A stretch of DNA of 44,740 bases. Origin: Deltaproteobacteria bacterium (GTDB taxonomy: Bacteria > Myxococcota_A > Polyangia > Polyangiales > JADJMO01). The position numbers and the translations under genes are program-made. The notes beneath the pieces are model-generated. The model was not told the DNA's origin. It searched no databases and saw nothing but the letters and a program-made list of their open reading frames with translations. The DNA is taken from NCBI GenBank assembly GCA_022843175.1, contig JALHOE010000049.1:1-44740 (forward strand). Reading direction: 5' to 3'. This document shows, piece by piece, positions 9,759-31,002 of the stretch (positions are counted from its first letter, which is position 1; every line of letters begins with the position of its first letter).

Positions 9759-11272
9759 TGGATCGGCGATCGTTCCTACGTGGTGCAGCGGGCTTCAGCC
9801 TCGGGCTCCCGTTCCTTCCGTCGCTCATTTCGCCGAACAGCGCGCGCGCGGCCGAGCCGCCGGTGCCGAAGAACTTCGTCGCCTTCGCCACCCACCACGG
9901 CGGGATCTGGGGGAGCAACATGTTCCCCGCCGACCCCACCGCCGAGAAGCGCGCGTACGCGGGCCACGAGATCCGCCGCGGCGCGCTCACCGCGCGGATC
10001 GAGGGCGCGGACGCGGTGATCTCGCCGGTGCTGCGGGCGCCGTCGGCCGATCTCACGCCGGCGCTCATCGCCAAGATGAACCTCATCCGCGGCTTGGACA
10101 TCCCCTTCTACATCGCGCACCACACCGGCGGGCACCTCGGCAACTACGCCCGCAACGACGGCAACGGCGGCGACGGCAAGGTCGTGCAGGCGTCTCCGCG
10201 CCCGACGATCGACCAGGTGATGGCCTGGTCGAAGACGTTCTACCCCGATCTCTCCAACGTGCGCGAGCGCTCGATGGTGATCGGCCGGCGCATCTCCTAC
10301 GGGTGGTCGAACCCGGAGACCAGGAGCGGCACCGTGCAGGAGATGGCGACCGAGGAGAGCTCGCTCGAGCTGTTCAATCGCATCTTCGTGCCGGCCGAGG
10401 ACCCGTCGACCGCGCGTGCCCCGATCGTCGACCGCGTGTTCGCCGACTACAAACGCCTGCGCGACGGCAGCCGTCGGCTCTCGAGCGCGGACAAGACCCG
10501 CCTCGACGATCACATGCAGCGCCTGAGCGAGCTCCAGCGCAAGCTCAACGCGAAGGGTGCGTCGTGCGGCTCGGTGACCAAGCCGAGCAAGGACTCCGAG
10601 GCGGTGCGGCGCATGGCCGGCTACGACTTCAACCCGGCGCTGCAGGCCGAATCGTTCGACCTGCTCAACGACGTGATCGTCGCCGCGTTCATCTGCGGCA
10701 CGAGCCGCGTCGCGGTGGTCAACGCGGGCAGCACGTTCTCCGAGTTCACCGGCGACTGGCACCAGGACATCGCGCACAAGGCCCACCTCCCGGCGGGCAC
10801 GCAGCAGAGGACCATCGCCACCGCGCACCAGCGCTTCTTCGCCAACGTCTACGTCGACCTCATGAAGAAGCTCGACATCGACGACGGAACCGGCAAGACG
10901 CTCCTCGACCGTTCGCTGATGGTGTGGAGTCAGGAGTCGGGCGCGTACACCCACGAGTCGCAGTCGATCCCGGTGGTCATGGCCGGAGGCGCCGGCGGCG
11001 CGCTCAAGACCGGCCACTACTGCGACTACCGCGCGCTCACCCGCGTCTTCGACAGCGGCGGCTTCGAGGGCTCGACCGAGAAGACCCACGCCGGCATCTG
11101 TTGGAACCAGTACCTCGGCACCGTGCTCACCGCGATGGGCCTGCCGAAGACCGAGTACGAGCGCGATGGATTGGGTGGTTATGGAGTGAAGTACGTGGGC
11201 GAGGGCCGCGCGAAGTACTACCCGGAGAGCGTGTTCTCGGTGATGGGCGAGACGCTGCCCTTCCTCGGGTAG
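9758..11272 (+). CDS. DUF1552-family Tat-exported protein (copy 1)
   Basis: A 504-residue protein whose ATG shares a base with the stop codon of the DUF1592 gene (TAATG) and is preceded by a GGAGG-type ribosome binding site at 9744-9749. The N-terminus MDRRSFLRG is a twin-arginine motif followed by a hydrophobic stretch and ARAA cleavage site, so it should be exported folded, possibly with a cofactor. The body carries DUF1552 features: FATHHGGIWG, LIRGLDIPF, GHLGNYAR, VVNAGSTFSEFTGDWHQDIAH, LMVWSQESG and GGAGGALKTGHYCDYR. The fold of this family is related to alkaline-phosphatase/sulfatase-like DUF1501 proteins, but its substrate is unknown. The constant pairing with DUF1592 implies a two-component secreted system; the second copy lies at 32507-33826. 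Confidence 0.93.
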   Translation: MDRRSFLRGAAGFSLGLPFLPSLISPNSARAAEPPVPKNFVAFATHHGGIWGSNMFPADPTAEKRAYAGHEIRRGALTARIEGADAVISPVLRAPSADLTPALIAKMNLIRGLDIPFYIAHHTGGHLGNYARNDGNGGDGKVVQASPRPTIDQVMAWSKTFYPDLSNVRERSMVIGRRISYGWSNPETRSGTVQEMATEESSLELFNRIFVPAEDPSTARAPIVDRVFADYKRLRDGSRRLSSADKTRLDDHMQRLSELQRKLNAKGASCGSVTKPSKDSEAVRRMAGYDFNPALQAESFDLLNDVIVAAFICGTSRVAVVNAGSTFSEFTGDWHQDIAHKAHLPAGTQQRTIATAHQRFFANVYVDLMKKLDIDDGTGKTLLDRSLMVWSQESGAYTHESQSIPVVMAGGAGGALKTGHYCDYRALTRVFDSGGFEGSTEKTHAGICWNQYLGTVLTAMGLPKTEYERDGLGGYGVKYVGEGRAKYYPESVFSVMGETLPFLG

Positions 11273-11278
11273 CCAGCC

Positions 11279-12250
11279 CTACTTCTTCTTGCGCTTGGGC
11301 GGGCCCGAGGGGCGGCTGCGCGGCTTCGGCGGGCGCGGCATCGGCGGGATCGCGGGCGCGATCGTATGCAGGAGCGCCGGCGACAGCGACTCGGGGACCT
11401 CGAGCAGCGCGCCGAGCGCGTCGAGCGAGCCGGGACGCGAGAGCGCGAGGTCGTGCAGCTTGCGGGCGTAGACCCGCATCAGCGGGCGCTTGCTCCGATC
11501 TCGCGTCCACCCCTCGCGCACGACCGCGGCGATCTGCGGGTCGAGCGCGCGGAGCTCTTCGACGGCGAGCGTCGTTCGTGACTCGAGCTCGTCGGCCAGC
11601 TCCTCGGCGTGCTCGGCGTTGTAGGGGAGCCGTCCGAGGACGCAGTGGGCGAGCAGCGTCGCGAGCGCCCACACGTCGGCGCGGCCGTCTCCCTCGTCGC
11701 CCCCGAGCTGCTCGGGCGGGAGGTAGGCGAGCGGCGAGATGAGCTGGTGCGGTCCGGCGCCGAGGCGCGCGATCCCGAAGTCGACCAGCTTGGGGATCAC
11801 TTTCCCCTTCGGATCGCGGTGCAGCAGCACGTTGGCCGCCTCGACCCGGCGATGGAACACGCGCTCCTCGTGCGCCGCCGCGAGCCCATGCGCGAGCGCC
11901 TCGGCGACGCGAACCGCGAGGCCGGGCGCGAGCGGGCCGCGGCGGAGGAGGATGCGCTCGAGCTTCTCGGAGACGAGCAGCGGCATCACCACGTACGGCG
12001 CCCCGTCGTGCTCGCCCTGATCGAGCAGCTCGACGAGCGACGGCTGCGCGAGCTGACCGCTCGCCCTCGCGTCGTGGAGAAACGCGGCGACCGCCTTGGG
12101 CTCGAGCGGCCACGGCGGCGCGATGAATTTGATCGCGCACTCGCGGCCGATCTTCTCGTGCCGCGCGCGCCACACCTCGCCGAGCTCCCCCGCGCCGAGG
12201 CGCTCAATCAACGTGTAGTTGCGACCGACCTGACCACCGGGGGCGAGCAT
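11279..12250 (-). CDS. Ser/Thr kinase-like protein with degenerate catalytic loop (second pseudokinase)
   Basis: A 323-residue cytosolic kinase-fold protein ending in a polybasic, Pro-rich tail (PPKPRSRPSGPPKRKKK). Seen are the glycine loop GAGELGEV (19-26), Lys41, and D157-F-G. The catalytic loop reads HRRVEAAN at 133-140 where active kinases have HRDLKPxN, so the acceptor Asp is Arg135 and the loop Lys is Glu137. The helix-C glutamate is also replaced by Asp60. It shares VLLHRD, PKLVDFG and the same charge swap with the protein at 1-1714, so the two are probably paralogs. Phosphotransfer is unlikely; a regulatory or nucleotide-sensing role is inferred. The canonical kinase gene lies just upstream in the same direction, 15 bases away, suggesting an active/pseudokinase pair. 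Confidence 0.9.
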   Translation of the reverse strand: MLAPGGQVGRNYTLIERLGAGELGEVWRARHEKIGRECAIKFIAPPWPLEPKAVAAFLHDARASGQLAQPSLVELLDQGEHDGAPYVVMPLLVSEKLERILLRRGPLAPGLAVRVAEALAHGLAAAHEERVFHRRVEAANVLLHRDPKGKVIPKLVDFGIARLGAGPHQLISPLAYLPPEQLGGDEGDGRADVWALATLLAHCVLGRLPYNAEHAEELADELESRTTLAVEELRALDPQIAAVVREGWTRDRSKRPLMRVYARKLHDLALSRPGSLDALGALLEVPESLSPALLHTIAPAIPPMPRPPKPRSRPSGPPKRKKK

Positions 12251-17190: not shown

Positions 17191-18000
17191 TCAGTCCTTG
17201 CGGTCGCGGACCACCGTCGAAGCGACCGTGACCACCGCGAGGTCGTCACCCAAGAGCGGGATCCGGCGCCGCGCACGGCGCTCGACCTCGAGCTGCACCG
17301 TTCGCGGGGGCGGCGGGACGCGCGCCATCATCGACGCAGGGATGGTGATCGCGCCCTGGTCGTCGGCGATGCAGACGATCGCCGCGGCCGCGCCGCTCGG
17401 TGACGCGACGTTGAGCCGGAGCGCGATCGTCCCCTTGCCCGGCTCCCACTCGATTTTGTAGGCGCCCTCGCTCGGCAGCAGCAGCGGCGTGATCAGGTTC
17501 GGCCTGGCCGGCGCGGTGATCTCGGCGCGAAACAGCGCGGTGTCGACGGTGAGGAGATCGCCCGCGGCGAAGAGCGGCGCCGAGAAGGGACGGTCCGCGT
17601 AGTAGGCGCTCGACCGCGCGTTGAAGGACAGCGTGATCTTCTCGGCGTGCGAGCTCCCGGTGATCACCACCGGCCCCTCGTCGCGAAACTGCAGCTGCTG
17701 ATACGGCAGGCACTGCCCGTTGCTGCAGTAGTGCGTGCCGCCCGCGCAGGTGGGGCTGCAGGTCTGCGGCACGCCGAGCCGGCACGGCCCCTCGATCAAC
17801 GCGGGCGGCACCGCGAAGTTGACGAGCATCTCGTCGAGCTCCTCGCGGTAGGGCACGCGCGAGGAGATGAACCCCGCCGCGGCGTGGGAGCCGAAGTCGT
17901 ATTGGTGGAGGTGCACCTCGGCGACGACGCCCGGATCGCGCGCGATCAGCGCCTCGCTGCTGCAGGCGACGACGAGGGCTCCGATCCACGGGCGGCGCAC
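17191..18000 (-). CDS. Lipoprotein with small Cys-rich segment, function unknown
   Basis: A 269-residue protein. I take the GTG at 18000 as the start because the next residues (RRPWIGALVVACSSEA) form a compact lipoprotein signal with lipobox VVAC; a longer form from 18042 would overlap the divergent Nudix gene. Residues about 80-105 contain a cluster of six cysteines (CRLG, TCSPTCAGG, YCSNGQC) similar to small disulfide-bonded knots in secreted myxobacterial proteins. The rest is beta-rich with no recognisable family. The divergent Nudix gene starts only 17 bases away, so the two promoters must overlap the neighbouring coding sequences. Confidence 0.8.
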   Translation of the reverse strand: MRRPWIGALVVACSSEALIARDPGVVAEVHLHQYDFGSHAAAGFISSRVPYREELDEMLVNFAVPPALIEGPCRLGVPQTCSPTCAGGTHYCSNGQCLPYQQLQFRDEGPVVITGSSHAEKITLSFNARSSAYYADRPFSAPLFAAGDLLTVDTALFRAEITAPARPNLITPLLLPSEGAYKIEWEPGKGTIALRLNVASPSGAAAAIVCIADDQGAITIPASMMARVPPPPRTVQLEVERRARRRIPLLGDDLAVVTVASTVVRDRKD

Positions 18001-18017
18001 GGCGCTACTATGCCACC

Positions 18018-18491
18018 GTGAAGCACTGTCCGCGCTGCGCAACGCCGCTGGTGAGTCGGGAGCACGCCGGGCGCGATCGAAAGGTGTGCCCGGCCGAGGG
18101 CTGCGGCTTCATCTTCTGGGACAACCCGCTCCCGGTCGCCGCCGCGATCGTCGAGCACGACGAGGGCGTGCTGCTCGTGCGCAACCACGGGTGGCCCGAG
18201 AAGATGTTCGGTCTCGTCACCGGCTTCATCGAGCGCGGAGAGTCCGCCGAGCAAGCCACGCTCCGCGAGCTGCGCGAGGAGCTCGGCCTCGAGGGAGAGA
18301 TCGTCCGACTCATCGGCGTCTACCCGTTCGAGCAGCGCAACGAGCTGATCGTCGCCTATCACGTGCGCGCCCACGGCCCGATCACGCTCGGCGAGGAGCT
18401 CGAAGCCTACCGAGCGATCGCGCGCGACAAGCTCCGCCCCTGGCCGTTCGGCACCGGTCTCGCCGTACGCGACTGGCTCACTTCGGCTTGA
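18018..18491 (+). CDS. Zinc-ribbon Nudix hydrolase
   Basis: A 157-residue protein with a GTG start at 18018. The N-terminal zinc ribbon has cysteine pairs C4-x2-C7 and C24-x4-C29. The Nudix box spans residues 69-91 and fits GX5EX7REUXEEXGU: Gly69, Glu75, then RELREELGL with the metal-binding glutamates. It should hydrolyse a nucleoside diphosphate linked to another moiety. The ribbon-plus-Nudix layout recalls NudC-type NADH pyrophosphatases, but the protein is much shorter than E. coli NudC (257 residues) and lacks its N-terminal domain. Its 3' end overlaps the convergent lipoprotein gene by 14 bases. Confidence 0.92.
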   Translation: MKHCPRCATPLVSREHAGRDRKVCPAEGCGFIFWDNPLPVAAAIVEHDEGVLLVRNHGWPEKMFGLVTGFIERGESAEQATLRELREELGLEGEIVRLIGVYPFEQRNELIVAYHVRAHGPITLGEELEAYRAIARDKLRPWPFGTGLAVRDWLTSA

Positions 18492-18766: not shown

Positions 18767-21523
18767 GTGCGCATCGTCCTCCTCTCCCTCGTCCTTGGCT
18801 GCGCGGGCGCTCCCGCGAACCTCCCGCCGCGCGTCGTCGAACCGCCGCCGAAGAAGGTCGTCGAGAAGCCCGCGGTGCGGTGGGTGTACGCGCGGCCGGC
18901 GGTCTCGCTCGGGCGCGCGCGCGAGCTCTCCGCCGGCAAGTCGCTGTTCGCCGCGCTCGAGGGGCAGCGGTGGCTTCGGAGCGGCGCTGCGTGGTCGCAC
19001 GCCGAGCGCCCCCTACCCGAGGATCTCGTCGGCGTGCTCGGGGGCGACACCTTCGACTACGTCGGCGCGAGCGGCACGGTGTACCGCACGAACGGCCCGC
19101 TCGGCGACGCGCTCGAGACGCGCCCGGCGAGCTACTCGCACGCGACCGCGAGCGACACCACGATCCTCGCGATCACCAAGGAGCACACGCTGGTCCGGTC
19201 CGTCGATCGGGGGGTGACGTACGCGGCGGTGAACGTCGCGGAGGGTGCGGTCGTCGACGTGGTGCTGTCGCGCGACGGCCGTGGCCTCGCGCTGCTCGCG
19301 CCCGAGCGCGTCTTCGTCACGAGAGATCACGGGGCCACCTGGACGCGGGGCGCGCTCCCCGACCTCGACCCGGAGGGTCTGTCGATCGCCGACGACGGCG
19401 CCCCCTACGTGGGCACCGCGGCGCGCGGCGCGAAGCTCGCGGCCTCCGGCTTCGCCGCGCCGTCGGTCGCGGAGGCGGCTGCCGAGAGCGGGCCGCGCGT
19501 GGCGGCGATCGCGGTCAACGGCGCGCGCGTGGTGGTCGTCGCCCACGAGAAGGGCAAGGAGCCGACGGTGGCGGTCACGACGCTCGACGGCGAGCGCACG
19601 TTCAAGCCGATCGCCGGGCTCGGTGCCTGCCACAGCGTCCTCGCCGCAGCGGCGAGCGATCACGTCGCCGTCGCGTGCGTTCGCCGCGAACCGGAGTCGC
19701 TCGCCGTCGCCCGCAGCTTCGATCAGGGCAAGACGTTCCGCCTCACCGAGGCGCTCCCGTTCGCCATCCCCTCCGGCTACCTCCGCGCGCGCGTGTCGCT
19801 CGCGGCTGGCAGCAAGGGCATGCTCGCCTACAGCGACGGCTATCACATCCGTTGGATCAAGAAGGAGGGCGAGACCCCGGTCGAGATCGGCAAGGATCTC
19901 TCCGTCGGAGCGCTCACCCTCGACGAGGCTCGCGCGCGGATCGTCGCCGCTGGCGATCACCTGCTCAGCGCGCCCCTCGACGGGGGCAAGGTCGAGAAGC
20001 TCGGCGAGCTCGAGTCGATCGAGGACGAGGCGCGCCTCGCGATCGACGACGACGGCCGAGTCCACCTCGCGTATGGCAACTTCCGCGGGCTGCAGGTGGT
20101 CCACGACGGGATCACCAAGGGCTATCCCCTCAAGCAGCCCCGCATCGCGCTCGCCGGCGGGCGCGGGCTCGTCGCGGTGGGTCCGCGCCTCTACGAGACC
20201 TCCGACGGCGGCGAGCACCTCCGCGACATCGGACGCGCGCCCGCGGGCCCGTTCGCCTGCGGCGCGGCGGGGTGTGCGTTCGCCTCGGCGTCACGAATCG
20301 GCTGGGGCGAAACCGGCACCTCGATCGCCGCGCAGCCGAACGTCAATCCGCCGCCCGAGGCAACGCCCTCGCCCACGATCGTCGCCTGCAAGCCGGTCGG
20401 CGCGCCGATCCGGGTCGCGGTGGGGACGCCGGAGCCCGCCGCGCAGCTCGTGCCCTCGCCGAGCGTGCCCTTCCGAGCGCCGACGCAGCTCGGCGTCGTC
20501 TCCGGCACGTTCGACAAGCCCACGGTCAGCACGCTGTTCGCGCCGACGAAGCGCAAGGCGATGGTCGTCTTCCACTCGGTCTCGAGCGGGTTCGTCGCGA
20601 TGCGCTACCTCGTCGCGCCGAAGACGGCACAGAGCGCGGGCCTCCGCGCGATCTCGCTCGACCTCGCGTGGCGGCGCGACTCCGAGAAAGCCGTGCACAA
20701 GGCGACGACCGGCGACGTCGGGACCTTCCGCATCCTCGTCGGAGCGGTGACCGAGGATCTGCACTGGCCCTACGCGGCGGGGATCGTCGACGGCGGGGTG
20801 ATCGTGCGAACGGCGCACCCGTTCATCGCGCCGCTCAAGGAGACGATGCCGCTGCCGCTCTTCGAGACCGACGACGACCCGCTGATGTTCACCGGGGCCA
20901 ACAGTGGGAACGATCCGTTCCTCTTCGTGCGCGACAACGGCAAGGTCGAGACGGTGACACCTCCCCCCGACGTGCCGGTGGTCTCCGCGATCTACCGCAG
21001 CAACGGCCGCTGGGTGGTGGTGTCGCGCGCGAACGAAGCGAAGGCGACGGTGTGGATCTCGTCGGACGAAAAGGGGACGAGCTGGCAGCGGCGCAGCGTG
21101 GGACTGTGGCCCGGCGCGGCGACGATCACGCTGAGCGAGACCGCCGGGAAGCCGGCGTTCGTCGTCGTCCCCGCGGACGGCAAGCGAGGCTTCGTCGCGA
21201 CGCTCTCGCTCGACGGCGCGCGCGGCCTCGACGTCCGCTCGTTCGGCATCCCCGCGCTCGATCGCAAGCACGCGTGCGGCACGCTCGACCCGGGGGCGCA
21301 CCGCGCCAACGTCAAGCACGAGGGCCTCGACGGTCGGGTCGGCGACGACCGCGTCGCGCTCGACAACTGGGTGCTCTCGGTCCCGCCCACGGGCGATGCT
21401 TGCGTCGCCGCGGTCGGCGGCAGCCTCTACGACCGCGGCCTGTTCGTCGGCCTCGGCAACCCGAAGCGCTCGCTCTGGTTCCTCCGCAACGAGCACGTTC
21501 AATCCGTCGACTGCCCGCTTTAG
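18767..21523 (+). CDS. Large BNR/beta-propeller-type lipoprotein (paralog A)
   Basis: A 918-residue protein. The GTG at 18767 starts a lipoprotein signal (RIVLLSLVLGC, Cys12) and is preferred to an upstream in-frame ATG that would bury it. A Pro-rich tether follows. The body shows repeated strands of the type SxDxGxTW (SVDRGVTYAAV, TRDHGATWTRG, SFDQGKTFRL, TSDGGEHLRD, SSDEKGTSWQRR), the Asp-box signature of sialidase-like and photosystem-assembly (Ycf48-like) propellers. An enzymatic triad is not evident, so it probably binds a ligand or partner. It is clearly homologous to the protein at 22688-25651: both have VxDNGKVET, a paired-cysteine segment followed by RxGW, and the same order of repeats. 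Its stop codon lies at the first arm of a 72-bp palindrome. Confidence 0.88.
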   Translation: MRIVLLSLVLGCAGAPANLPPRVVEPPPKKVVEKPAVRWVYARPAVSLGRARELSAGKSLFAALEGQRWLRSGAAWSHAERPLPEDLVGVLGGDTFDYVGASGTVYRTNGPLGDALETRPASYSHATASDTTILAITKEHTLVRSVDRGVTYAAVNVAEGAVVDVVLSRDGRGLALLAPERVFVTRDHGATWTRGALPDLDPEGLSIADDGAPYVGTAARGAKLAASGFAAPSVAEAAAESGPRVAAIAVNGARVVVVAHEKGKEPTVAVTTLDGERTFKPIAGLGACHSVLAAAASDHVAVACVRREPESLAVARSFDQGKTFRLTEALPFAIPSGYLRARVSLAAGSKGMLAYSDGYHIRWIKKEGETPVEIGKDLSVGALTLDEARARIVAAGDHLLSAPLDGGKVEKLGELESIEDEARLAIDDDGRVHLAYGNFRGLQVVHDGITKGYPLKQPRIALAGGRGLVAVGPRLYETSDGGEHLRDIGRAPAGPFACGAAGCAFASASRIGWGETGTSIAAQPNVNPPPEATPSPTIVACKPVGAPIRVAVGTPEPAAQLVPSPSVPFRAPTQLGVVSGTFDKPTVSTLFAPTKRKAMVVFHSVSSGFVAMRYLVAPKTAQSAGLRAISLDLAWRRDSEKAVHKATTGDVGTFRILVGAVTEDLHWPYAAGIVDGGVIVRTAHPFIAPLKETMPLPLFETDDDPLMFTGANSGNDPFLFVRDNGKVETVTPPPDVPVVSAIYRSNGRWVVVSRANEAKATVWISSDEKGTSWQRRSVGLWPGAATITLSETAGKPAFVVVPADGKRGFVATLSLDGARGLDVRSFGIPALDRKHACGTLDPGAHRANVKHEGLDGRVGDDRVALDNWVLSVPPTGDACVAAVGGSLYDRGLFVGLGNPKRSLWFLRNEHVQSVDCPL

Positions 21524-21594
21524 GCGCGCGCGTCAGCGAGCGCCTCGGTGATTGCACCATTCCGCACCGGTAGGCGCTCGCTTACGCGCGCGCC
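21523..21594. repeat. Dispersed palindromic element, copy 1
   Basis: Arms of 23 bases at 21523-21545 and 21572-21594 are complementary with a single mismatch. The 26-base loop contains a further CGGTG/CACCG stem. A nearly identical element occurs at 30859-30930. Both lie directly after a plus-strand lipoprotein gene and could work as transcription terminators as well as being REP-like repeats. The first arm begins on the last base of the TAG stop codon at 21521-21523. Confidence 0.88.
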
Positions 21595-21653
21595 GATTCG
21601 GCACGGTCGACGGAGGACGGCAGCGACACCAGCGCTCGATCACCACAACTGCG

Positions 21654-22664
21654 CTAGCTCGGGCACTTGCTGGCGAAGATGCAGACCGAGCTCGCGAAGC
21701 CCGGCGGCTTGCAGTACTGCCAGCCCGCGGGGCAATCGAGCTTGTCGCGCGCGGGGCGGTATTTCTTGCACGCGCCGTCGGCGCACAGCTCGTCGACGCC
21801 GGCGCACTTGAGGTTGCAGCCGCCGCAGTGGTTCGGGTCGTGCATCTTGTCGACGCAGGAGCGCACGCGGCCGCCGCTGTCGGTCGGCGAGGTGACGACC
21901 TTGCAGTCGATGTGATTGGGGATCGCGGTGCACGGGTTGGCCGCGGTCGACGACGCGTAGCTGCACGCGTTGCCGATGCACCAGCCGATCTGGGGCGCGC
22001 CGTAGCAGCGGCGGTAGGTCTTCACGCTGCCGCTCGCGTAGTACTCGAAGCAGAAATTGCCCTCGGCGCTGGTGTCGACGCACGCGCTGCTCGCGGGGCA
22101 GTCCACCGGGTAGTAGCTGCCGCTGTAGGTGAAGCCCCAGCTCTTGCACTCGCGGAGCGTCCACGCGCAGGTGGGCGAGCTCGCGGCGCACGTCTCCGAC
22201 GAGTCGTGGACCTCGAGCCCGCAGCCGCCGCAGTGGAGCGGGTCGGCGTCGACGTACGTGCAGGTGCCGCCGCACAGCTTCGCGCCGCTCGCGCACTGGC
22301 ACTTGCCGGCCACGCAGCGTGCCGCGCCCTTGAAGCCCTGCGCCTCGCACGACGCGCAGGTGGGCCCGCAATGGTCGCGGTCGGTGTTCACGTCGTAGCA
22401 GGTGTCGCCGCAGCGGAGCTGTCCGGCGGGGCACGGCACGCCGGTGTCGCTCGGCGGCATGTAGGTATCGACGCTGATGTCGACCGGCGCGACGTCGGGG
22501 AGCGACACCTCCTCCTCGGTGATCGGCGCGTCGGCGCGGCCCGGATCGACCGTCGCGTCGGCGGCGATCGGCGAGGAGTCGCGCCCGTGGTTGGCGGAGT
22601 ACTTATCGAAGTCCTGCGTGAGCCCGCAGCCCGTGAGCACGATCGCAAGGACGAGGGCGCGCAT
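21654..22664 (-). CDS. Cys-rich lipoprotein with Stig1-like repeats
   Basis: A 336-residue protein from the ATG at 22664 with lipobox LTGC. After an Asp/Ala/Pro linker, the mature region contains about thirty cysteines arranged in repeats such as CGDTCYDVNTDRDHCG, CGGTCTYVDADPLHCGGCG and KMHDPNHCGGCNLKC. The pattern CGGxC...DPxHCGxCG matches the Stigma-specific Stig1-like repeat that is widespread in myxobacterial secreted proteins. The role there is unknown, but disulfide-rich surface or adhesin functions are commonly proposed. It follows the BNR lipoprotein gene by 23 bases on the same strand and is probably the last gene of that transcript. Confidence 0.85.
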   Translation of the reverse strand: MRALVLAIVLTGCGLTQDFDKYSANHGRDSSPIAADATVDPGRADAPITEEEVSLPDVAPVDISVDTYMPPSDTGVPCPAGQLRCGDTCYDVNTDRDHCGPTCASCEAQGFKGAARCVAGKCQCASGAKLCGGTCTYVDADPLHCGGCGLEVHDSSETCAASSPTCAWTLRECKSWGFTYSGSYYPVDCPASSACVDTSAEGNFCFEYYASGSVKTYRRCYGAPQIGWCIGNACSYASSTAANPCTAIPNHIDCKVVTSPTDSGGRVRSCVDKMHDPNHCGGCNLKCAGVDELCADGACKKYRPARDKLDCPAGWQYCKPPGFASSVCIFASKCPS

Positions 22665-30801: not shown

Positions 30802-31002
30802 CGACCACCGCGAGCGGAGCCGCCGTCAACCGTCGACCGTCGACCGTGCCGACCCATAGGCGCGCGCGTCAGCGAGCGCCTCGGTGATTTGCACCCTTCG
30901 CAGCGATAGGCGCTCGCTTACGCGCGCGCCTGTTCGGCCGTGCTTCCAACGGAAGACGGTTGACGGTCGACGTAACCCGCGACCACCGCGAGCGGAACCG
31001 CC
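30802..31002. repeat. Direct repeats flanking the palindrome
   Basis: Two 23-base direct repeats (30802-30824 and 30980-31002, one mismatch) containing GACCACCGCGAGCGGA bracket the palindrome at 30859-30930. Inside them, heptamers of the type CGTCGAC (30825-30845) and their inverse (30955-30972) face each other. The symmetric arrangement suggests a composite inserted unit; I see no gene here. Confidence 0.7.
30859..30930. repeat. Dispersed palindromic element, copy 2
   Basis: The same structure as at 21523-21594: 23-base arms at 30859-30881 and 30908-30930 with the same single mismatch, and a 26-base loop that differs at a few positions. The arms are identical to copy 1 base for base. It lies in the 208-base gap between convergent genes ending at 30800 and 31009. 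Confidence 0.88.

Follow-up and report, generated by a model that had tools for sequence, protein, structure and literature searches.

The systems most similar to the palindrome studied here are the REP sequences and their doublets, the REPINs. As described in PMC3116915, a REPIN is made of two inverted copies of a short, conserved palindrome and measures about 70 bp; it is extragenic and present in many copies, with a spacer that is less conserved than the arms. The family reported below shares each of these properties. It differs from that description in that no RAYT gene flanked by intact units was found here. The GTAG and CGTC REPs (PMC3733652) provide a second comparison. In common with the present units they have a short stem, with a mismatch in some families, they lie between convergent genes or downstream of a gene, and their unit end can provide a TAG stop. 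Their commonest dimers have the tag outside, which is the −/+ arrangement of our doublets if AYAG is equated with the tag. Some of their families are confined to one species, and the CGTC REPs have no dedicated transposase, none being obvious for the units here either. GTAG repeats are reported in that account in all divisions of the Proteobacteria, alpha to epsilon, so that the mere occurrence of REPs near this group is no novelty. The main text of PMC3733652 makes no mention of myxo, Sorangium, Haliangium or Stigmatella, and myxo is likewise absent from the other REP papers that were word-searched. Among the papers listed in searches of the open-licence literature, with preprints outside their scope, we found no report of a REP family in myxobacteria.

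Two further systems bear on the possible partners of such a repeat. The class 3 TnpA-Y1 proteins, according to PMC6006769, are HUH proteins with an NHVH motif from Planctomycetes, Acidobacteria and Proteobacteria, with atypical flanking hairpins that are sometimes very numerous in a genome. The present genome likewise contains both HUH proteins and very numerous hairpins; in contrast to the reported foot CnGA, however, the feet here are NNAG and AYAG, and the intact units do not lie next to the RAYT-like genes. The second is the intervening sequence (IVS) of 23S rRNA with its S23/IVP protein (PMC4990558). Some units here neighbor genes that match PF05635/TIGR02436 with a stem-loop upstream, as in that system. 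Unlike the IVS as described there, these genes are not seen in rRNA and can occur as convergent pairs, and they are accompanied by hexamer arrays and by our repeat unit, the latter in this genome only.

We have analyzed a stretch of 44,740 nucleotides (the window) from a deltaproteobacterial assembly (GCA_022843175.1, contig JALHOE010000049.1). A preliminary description had reported two copies of a palindrome in which the arms are identical and the loop varies, and the sequence at 21523-21594 and 30859-30930 bears this out. The left arm GGCGCGCGCGTCAGCGAGCGCCT occupies 21523-21545 and 30859-30881, the right arm AGGCGCTCGCTTACGCGCGCGCC occupies 21572-21594 and 30908-30930 with the same letters in each copy, and the 26-nt loops of the two doublets (21522-21595 and 30858-30931) are unlike one another. 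Each palindrome consists of two inverted copies of a 24-nt unit, unit A, AGGCGCTCGCTNACGCGCGCGCCT, which is itself a small hairpin, so that the two inverted units form a hairpin of ~74 nt. Their positions and those of the adjacent genes are given in Table 1. No Rfam family was found in the window at the gathering threshold.

Table 1. Components of the two doublets in the window, with the genes beside the first
Feature	Position	Strand	Remarks
Gene upstream of first doublet	18767-21523	+	BNR-repeat match, weak, under cut-off
TAG stop of upstream ORF	21521-21523	+	Its last two bases (AG) open the left unit
Left 24-nt unit A, first doublet	21522-21545	−	Loop TGAC on its own strand
26-nt loop of first doublet, CGGTGATTGCACCATTCCGCACCGGT	21546-21571		Has its own ends CGGTG/CACCG
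Right 24-nt unit A, first doublet	21572-21595	+	Loop TTAC; final base G, not T (mismatch)
Convergent gene across first doublet	21654-22664	−	Stig1 match, weak, under cut-off
Left 24-nt unit A, second doublet	30858-30881	−
26-nt loop of second doublet	30882-30907		Diverged from the loop of the first doublet
Right 24-nt unit A, second doublet	30908-30931	+

Folded alone, unit A gives a 6-bp stem AGGCGC/GCGCCT, a T-C mismatch, a 3-bp stem CGC/GCG and the loop TNAC. The predicted folding energy is −15.7 or −16.7 kcal/mol per unit, and −55.1 and −53.0 kcal/mol for the doublets of the window. Variation of the unit and its genomic context were examined in a 2.4 Mb sample made up of 120 stretches of 20 kb, each from the middle of a contig, so that contig ends and small contigs are not represented. 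The inner core CGCTCGCTNACGCNCGCG occurs at 133 places in this sample, with none in a reversed control. The preliminary description had remarked on a single arm mismatch common to both copies; it is indeed present in each, and corresponds to the free base N of the tetraloop at position 12 of the unit. Since this position is G in 80, T in 36, C in 15 and A in 2 of the 133 core matches, the mismatch is not a conserved feature in itself.

The outer bases of the core matches are AGG-CCT, as in A, in 92 cases and ACC-GCT (form B) in 27. B is commonly paired with a third form, B′ (23 places), as inverted doublets, and both retain the loop and the overall shape of A. As read from the sequences, G-C to C-G exchanges affecting both sides of pairs 3-22 and 9-16 distinguish B and B′ from A and also from one another. 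Against pairing, C-C replaces pair 2-23 in B, and pair 8-17 is broken by a T at position 17 in B′ and in 14 of the 133 core matches. The exchanges thus offer modest evidence for a conserved hairpin, based on few independent events, and the structural evidence as a whole is mixed. The conserved stretch is slightly longer than 24 nt, because outside 41 single units position −1 is C or T in 31, +1 is A or G in 40 and +2 is T in 30. An extension of the stem by pairing of −1 with +1 was considered and rejected, there being 24 Watson-Crick pairs compared with 37.9 in shuffled combinations.

The palindrome had been taken to be dispersed, and its copies are far more numerous than the two in the window. 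With up to 1 mismatch allowed, the 24-mer is present at 589 places in the host assembly (277 forward and 312 reverse; reversed control 0), which comprises 9.75 Mb in 470 contigs and is 95% complete. A pattern of both arms, using 20 bases of each, has 28 exact matches in the genome against none for its reversed control, and a single 22-nt arm with up to 3 mismatches has 672 against 8; the palindrome is therefore not a chance occurrence. Within the sample, unit A with N free is found at 92, 102, 112 and 131 places (cumulatively) with 0, 1, 2 and 3 mismatches, the last step taking in B units. The reversed control gives none up to 3 mismatches, and at 4 mismatches the count is 180 vs 14. Units are denser outside the sample, with 51 per Mb in the first 1.6 Mb sampled (81 arms) compared with 69 per Mb over the 9.75 Mb (672 arms). 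At up to 1 mismatch the 24-mer is absent from 316 further genomes of the class, among them one congener. A search of four other genomes of the family with the 22-nt arm gave 5-21 places (controls 5-13), with none below 2 mismatches among the matches listed, and the viral contigs searched contained no unit.

In the sample the units lie almost exclusively between genes. Gene ends are approximate here, as the 2047 genes (85% coding) come from a simple caller based on codon usage. The 103 A units of the sample comprise 102 that are intergenic and one at a gene edge, with none inside a called gene; 24 of 27 B units are intergenic and three are at a gene edge, and of the three core matches assigned to neither form one lies within a called gene. 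Among the 67 of 69 A loci that could be classified, the flanking genes are convergent in 43, tandem in 21 and divergent in 3, although these classes contribute 23%, 44% and 33% of intergenic bases, respectively (p = 5e-13 for the excess between convergent genes and p = 1e-8 for the deficit between divergent ones). In tandem contexts the orientation of the unit relative to the genes is divided 15 against 6. Eleven units overlap the stop codon of a gene by exactly two bases, and all 11 stops are TAG. The doublet at 21522 is of this kind; it had been proposed that its left arm begins at the last base of the TAG, and the overlap with the stop is correct, although it extends to two bases rather than one, since AG belongs to the 24-nt unit. 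Such overlaps need not signify selection, because the unit sequence can itself terminate reading frames that run into it, and a TAG stop supplied by the end of the unit is a reported habit of GTAG REPs (PMC3733652).

Of the 69 A loci, 41 carry one unit, 24 carry two, and two each carry three and four. In this the family departs from the REPINs of PMC3116915, where the doublet is taken as the replicative unit, as single units here outnumber clusters. Where units have neighbors within 150 bp (34 pairs seen, 0.8 expected), 28 of the 34 pairs are inverted, 19 being −/+ as in the window and nine +/−, with six direct. The loops were expected to vary more than the arms, and they do so at 14 doublet-like places with the loop type of the window: the mean is 4.8 edits in the 26-nt loop and 1.3 mismatches per 23-nt arm, means that include one spurious-looking place and one broken arm. 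In this set 19 of 28 arms are perfect, the search itself (a short loop seed, one arm with up to 6 and the other with up to 10 mismatches) favoring intact arms. Comparable behavior is seen in copies of a small gene cassette discussed below, which are 79-87% alike over about 190-290 bp with the unit unchanged except at N. Because the arms are nearly invariant while homologous loops and cassette DNA diverge, we infer that something maintains the sequence of the unit. The unit seems to be kept as it is while the DNA nearby drifts, whether by selection or because fresh copies replace old ones. The alternatives of a mobile or a selected element, between which the earlier suggestion had left a choice, need not be exclusive for these hairpins.

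The family is a REP family in the descriptive sense, being a 24-nt palindrome of high copy number that is extragenic and found mostly between convergent genes or at gene ends. The REP-like character proposed for the palindrome at the outset is upheld by its copy number, its extragenic and gene-end position, the inverted doublets, arms that vary less than loops, and the stop overlap. It falls outside the GTAG superfamily: among 100 units one foot is NNAG, with GTAG in 18, and the other is AYAG in 70, with GTAG in just 3, and AYAG is neither the GTAG nor the CGTC foot of PMC3733652. The inverted doublets with conserved ends and a less conserved spacer that define REPINs are present (28 of 34 neighbor pairs inverted, 28 exact doublets). 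We consider it probable that this is a species-restricted REP family, of which the window copies are REPIN-type inverted doublets. Mobility of the units is suggested by their spread to many gene contexts within one species. Orthologues of the gene upstream of the first doublet were used to look for an empty site; matches were obtained in 18 of 28 genomes, the host among them, and outside the own locus these were short patches only. The one congener examined likewise gave short patchy matches at this gene, and no empty site was seen at the one locus tried.

A mechanism that would account for these properties can be proposed. A sequence-specific factor would process the units in trans as single-stranded hairpins and so bring about their spread; their uniformity would be upheld by selection or by further rounds of copying. 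Surviving units would accumulate where they are harmless, between convergent genes, where their AG ends may often give a TAG stop. The mobilizing protein might be a divergent RAYT-like protein acting in trans, one that has been lost or lies in unassembled sequence, or something tied to the four-helix-bundle cassette. The uniformity could alternatively arise from selection on a protein-binding site without mobility. This large and near-uniform REP population, which was seen in a single species but not in the 316 other genomes searched from the class, has no dedicated transposase that is obvious. It could serve to test whether a RAYT is necessary for REPs, and what keeps them uniform while the neighboring DNA drifts.

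Is there a RAYT in this genome that could mobilize the units in trans, as in classical REPINs? This would alter only the identity of the mobilizer, and we regard it as a serious though tentative candidate, somewhat less probable than its converse. The preliminary description had envisaged a RAYT-type transposase, and four divergent RAYT-like genes do exist, none of them flanked by intact units. The Y1_Tnp profile has five matches in the host genome, four of them over the Pfam cut-off. The four proteins L030-L033 (three over the Pfam cut-off), which with L029 left out were compared with the NCBIfam model REP_Tyr_transpos, score 38-44 bits against it, far below the cut-off of 80. A degenerate unit with 4 mismatches is found 195 bp downstream of L031; at about 60 units per Mb, however, one nearby degenerate unit is weak evidence. 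The internally mismatched hairpin of unit A would suit TnpA-REP, which is reported to recognize palindromes with a bulge (PMC8266576). On the other side, no intact unit lies beside any of the five Y1_Tnp loci within the 0.4-1.5 kb of flank, and L030, L031 and L033 have a different flanking motif in common. By eye this resembles GCTTCGCCCG..AGGCCGCCGGCAGG; as a candidate second REP family it was rejected, four patterns giving 0 copies in the 2.4 Mb sample. A cognate RAYT flanked by repeats, as in REPINs and REPtrons, is thus not seen in an assembly with about 5% missing, and the gene concerned may lie in what is absent from the 470 contigs.

A separate observation concerns L029 (about 1501-1830), where the Y1_Tnp match has an HUH motif that seems to read EVHV, so that one histidine may be missing; judged from its sequence, this is perhaps a domesticated or dead relative.

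The units might instead be immobile functional hairpins, acting as terminators, stabilizers of mRNA 3′ ends or protein-binding sites, that arose in place and were kept by selection at gene ends. Their position at gene ends and between convergent genes, their strong folds and the maintenance of their sequence are all consistent with this, and a T-rich stretch is found in 5 of 206 unit flanks (2.4%) compared with 0.6% of random intergenic positions. Yet a hairpin followed by a T-run, as expected of an intrinsic terminator, is lacking in the other 201 flanks, and terminators require no fixed sequence. Moreover tandem arrays, the occurrence of both orientations and the absence of the units from the congener and the family are not expected of an origin in place. 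We consider this explanation unlikely.

Equally doubtful, in our judgment, is the proposal that the units belong to a mobile or repeated four-helix-bundle gene cassette, with the doublets as its gene-less derivatives and the cassette rather than a RAYT as the partner. The cassette was reached by following A units into a repeated segment, which contains small genes matching PF05635/TIGR02436, models named for the IVS protein and four-helix-bundle proteins; several of the host genes score below the cut-offs. An alignment of five such genes (A1) had 18 matches in the host genome, and among the matches listed 17 entries represent 16 genes. Twelve A1 genes were examined, omitting C151 (at a contig start), C69:32621 and one match outside those listed; two further A1 genes at contig starts have 119 and 157 bp of upstream DNA, in which no unit is present. 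An exact unit is present 78-200 bp upstream, on the opposite strand, in 11 of these 12, three of the 11 being gene fragments; the exception, C63, is a distant member. By comparison, a unit lies in the 300 bp upstream of 24 genes among the 2047 called. Both convergent A1 pairs among the matches listed (C54 and C30) lie between units arranged as A(−)...A(+), as in the doublets of the window.

The A1 copies are paralogues, however, and so not independent; by our reading about four divergent lineages represent independent cases. The cassette is linked to 8 of the 69 sampled A loci only. Among the 134 genes that flank A loci the A1 family, with six members, is the only cluster above two; but the largest clusters in three random gene sets of equal size had 4, 7 and 3 members, so that clustering alone is not unusual. 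By eye, the loops of the window are unlike cassette DNA, and a four-helix bundle of 105 amino acids has no known catalytic site, which also counts against a role as partner. Several PF05635 matches are without the unit. None was seen in the flanks examined of L212, L213, L214 and L219, nor in the 157 and 119 bp of upstream DNA available at L216 and L224. A B unit lies about 480 bp from L220, and the subfamily resembling L213 has a unit at one of four places in the sample.

The four-helix family extends well beyond this genome. It is present in 16 of the 38 genomes searched (own included), several of them multicopy and often with convergent pairs, and a separate listing contains 77 loci related to the four-helix alignment. 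In those other genomes whose cassettes were read, the cassette has a long stem-loop upstream of the gene and hexamer arrays outside, with no unit A. It looks like a repeated or mobile element; among the papers listed from the open-licence literature, preprints outside scope, we found nothing on the cassette as such an element or on a link of four-helix proteins to REPs. The unit is absent from the ends of the cassettes of eight other genomes, and from all 316 at up to 1 mismatch. The occurrence of multicopy cassettes without the unit in other genomes of the order argues against the proposed partnership, and the unit is thus not inherent to the cassette. In this species the unit was added to the cassette, or the cassette copies were homogenized after one addition. 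A REPtron-like arrangement can nonetheless be imagined, in which inverted REP units became the ends of a ~1.1 kb IVP/S23-like cassette of two convergent genes, each preceded by a structured RNA, and the cassette serves as partner of the family, while gene-less doublets spread separately. We think this improbable; the case nevertheless provides a test of a role in mobile elements for four-helix-bundle proteins that are associated with RNA hairpins outside rRNA.

Least likely by far is that the copies of what we take to be a dispersed REP family result from ordinary segmental duplication or from an artefact of the fragmented assembly: the similarity of the cassette copies, that of L166 and L197 (86% over 174 bp) and an off-locus match of at least 45 bp at 81 of 89 A or B loci would fit duplication, but among the matches listed these are mostly short alignments of doublet on doublet, the flanks mostly differ beyond about 3 nt outside the unit, and just 14 of the 134 genes flanking A loci fall in any shared cluster.

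Several minor observations relate to the cassette and its surroundings. At L218 (G000:C38, about 17863-18195) a doublet of the window type adjoins an N-terminally truncated four-helix gene of another subfamily. The cassette is multicopy in genomes G008, G191, G182, G003, G006, G015, G026 and G315 (L257-L269 and L272-L296; L270 and L271 are from the own genome), and several genomes have it as a convergent gene pair spanning about 1 kb, in which a long stem-loop precedes the start codon. The hexamer arrays (GCAGAC and variants, for example L094 at about 11130-11390) contain the commonest 14-mer of the sample after low-complexity filtering, with 81 occurrences compared with 76 for the 14-mer of unit A. 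The idea that units target these arrays was not supported, 4 of 61 non-cassette A loci being near an array (6.6%) against 3.1% of random positions. Finally, the DNA upstream of the four-helix genes (for example L222 at about 1309-1497, and L277-L288) contains a candidate structured RNA, with nested stems around a G/C-rich hairpin such as GACCGCTTCGCGGTC, the shape of which appears by eye to be similar between genera.
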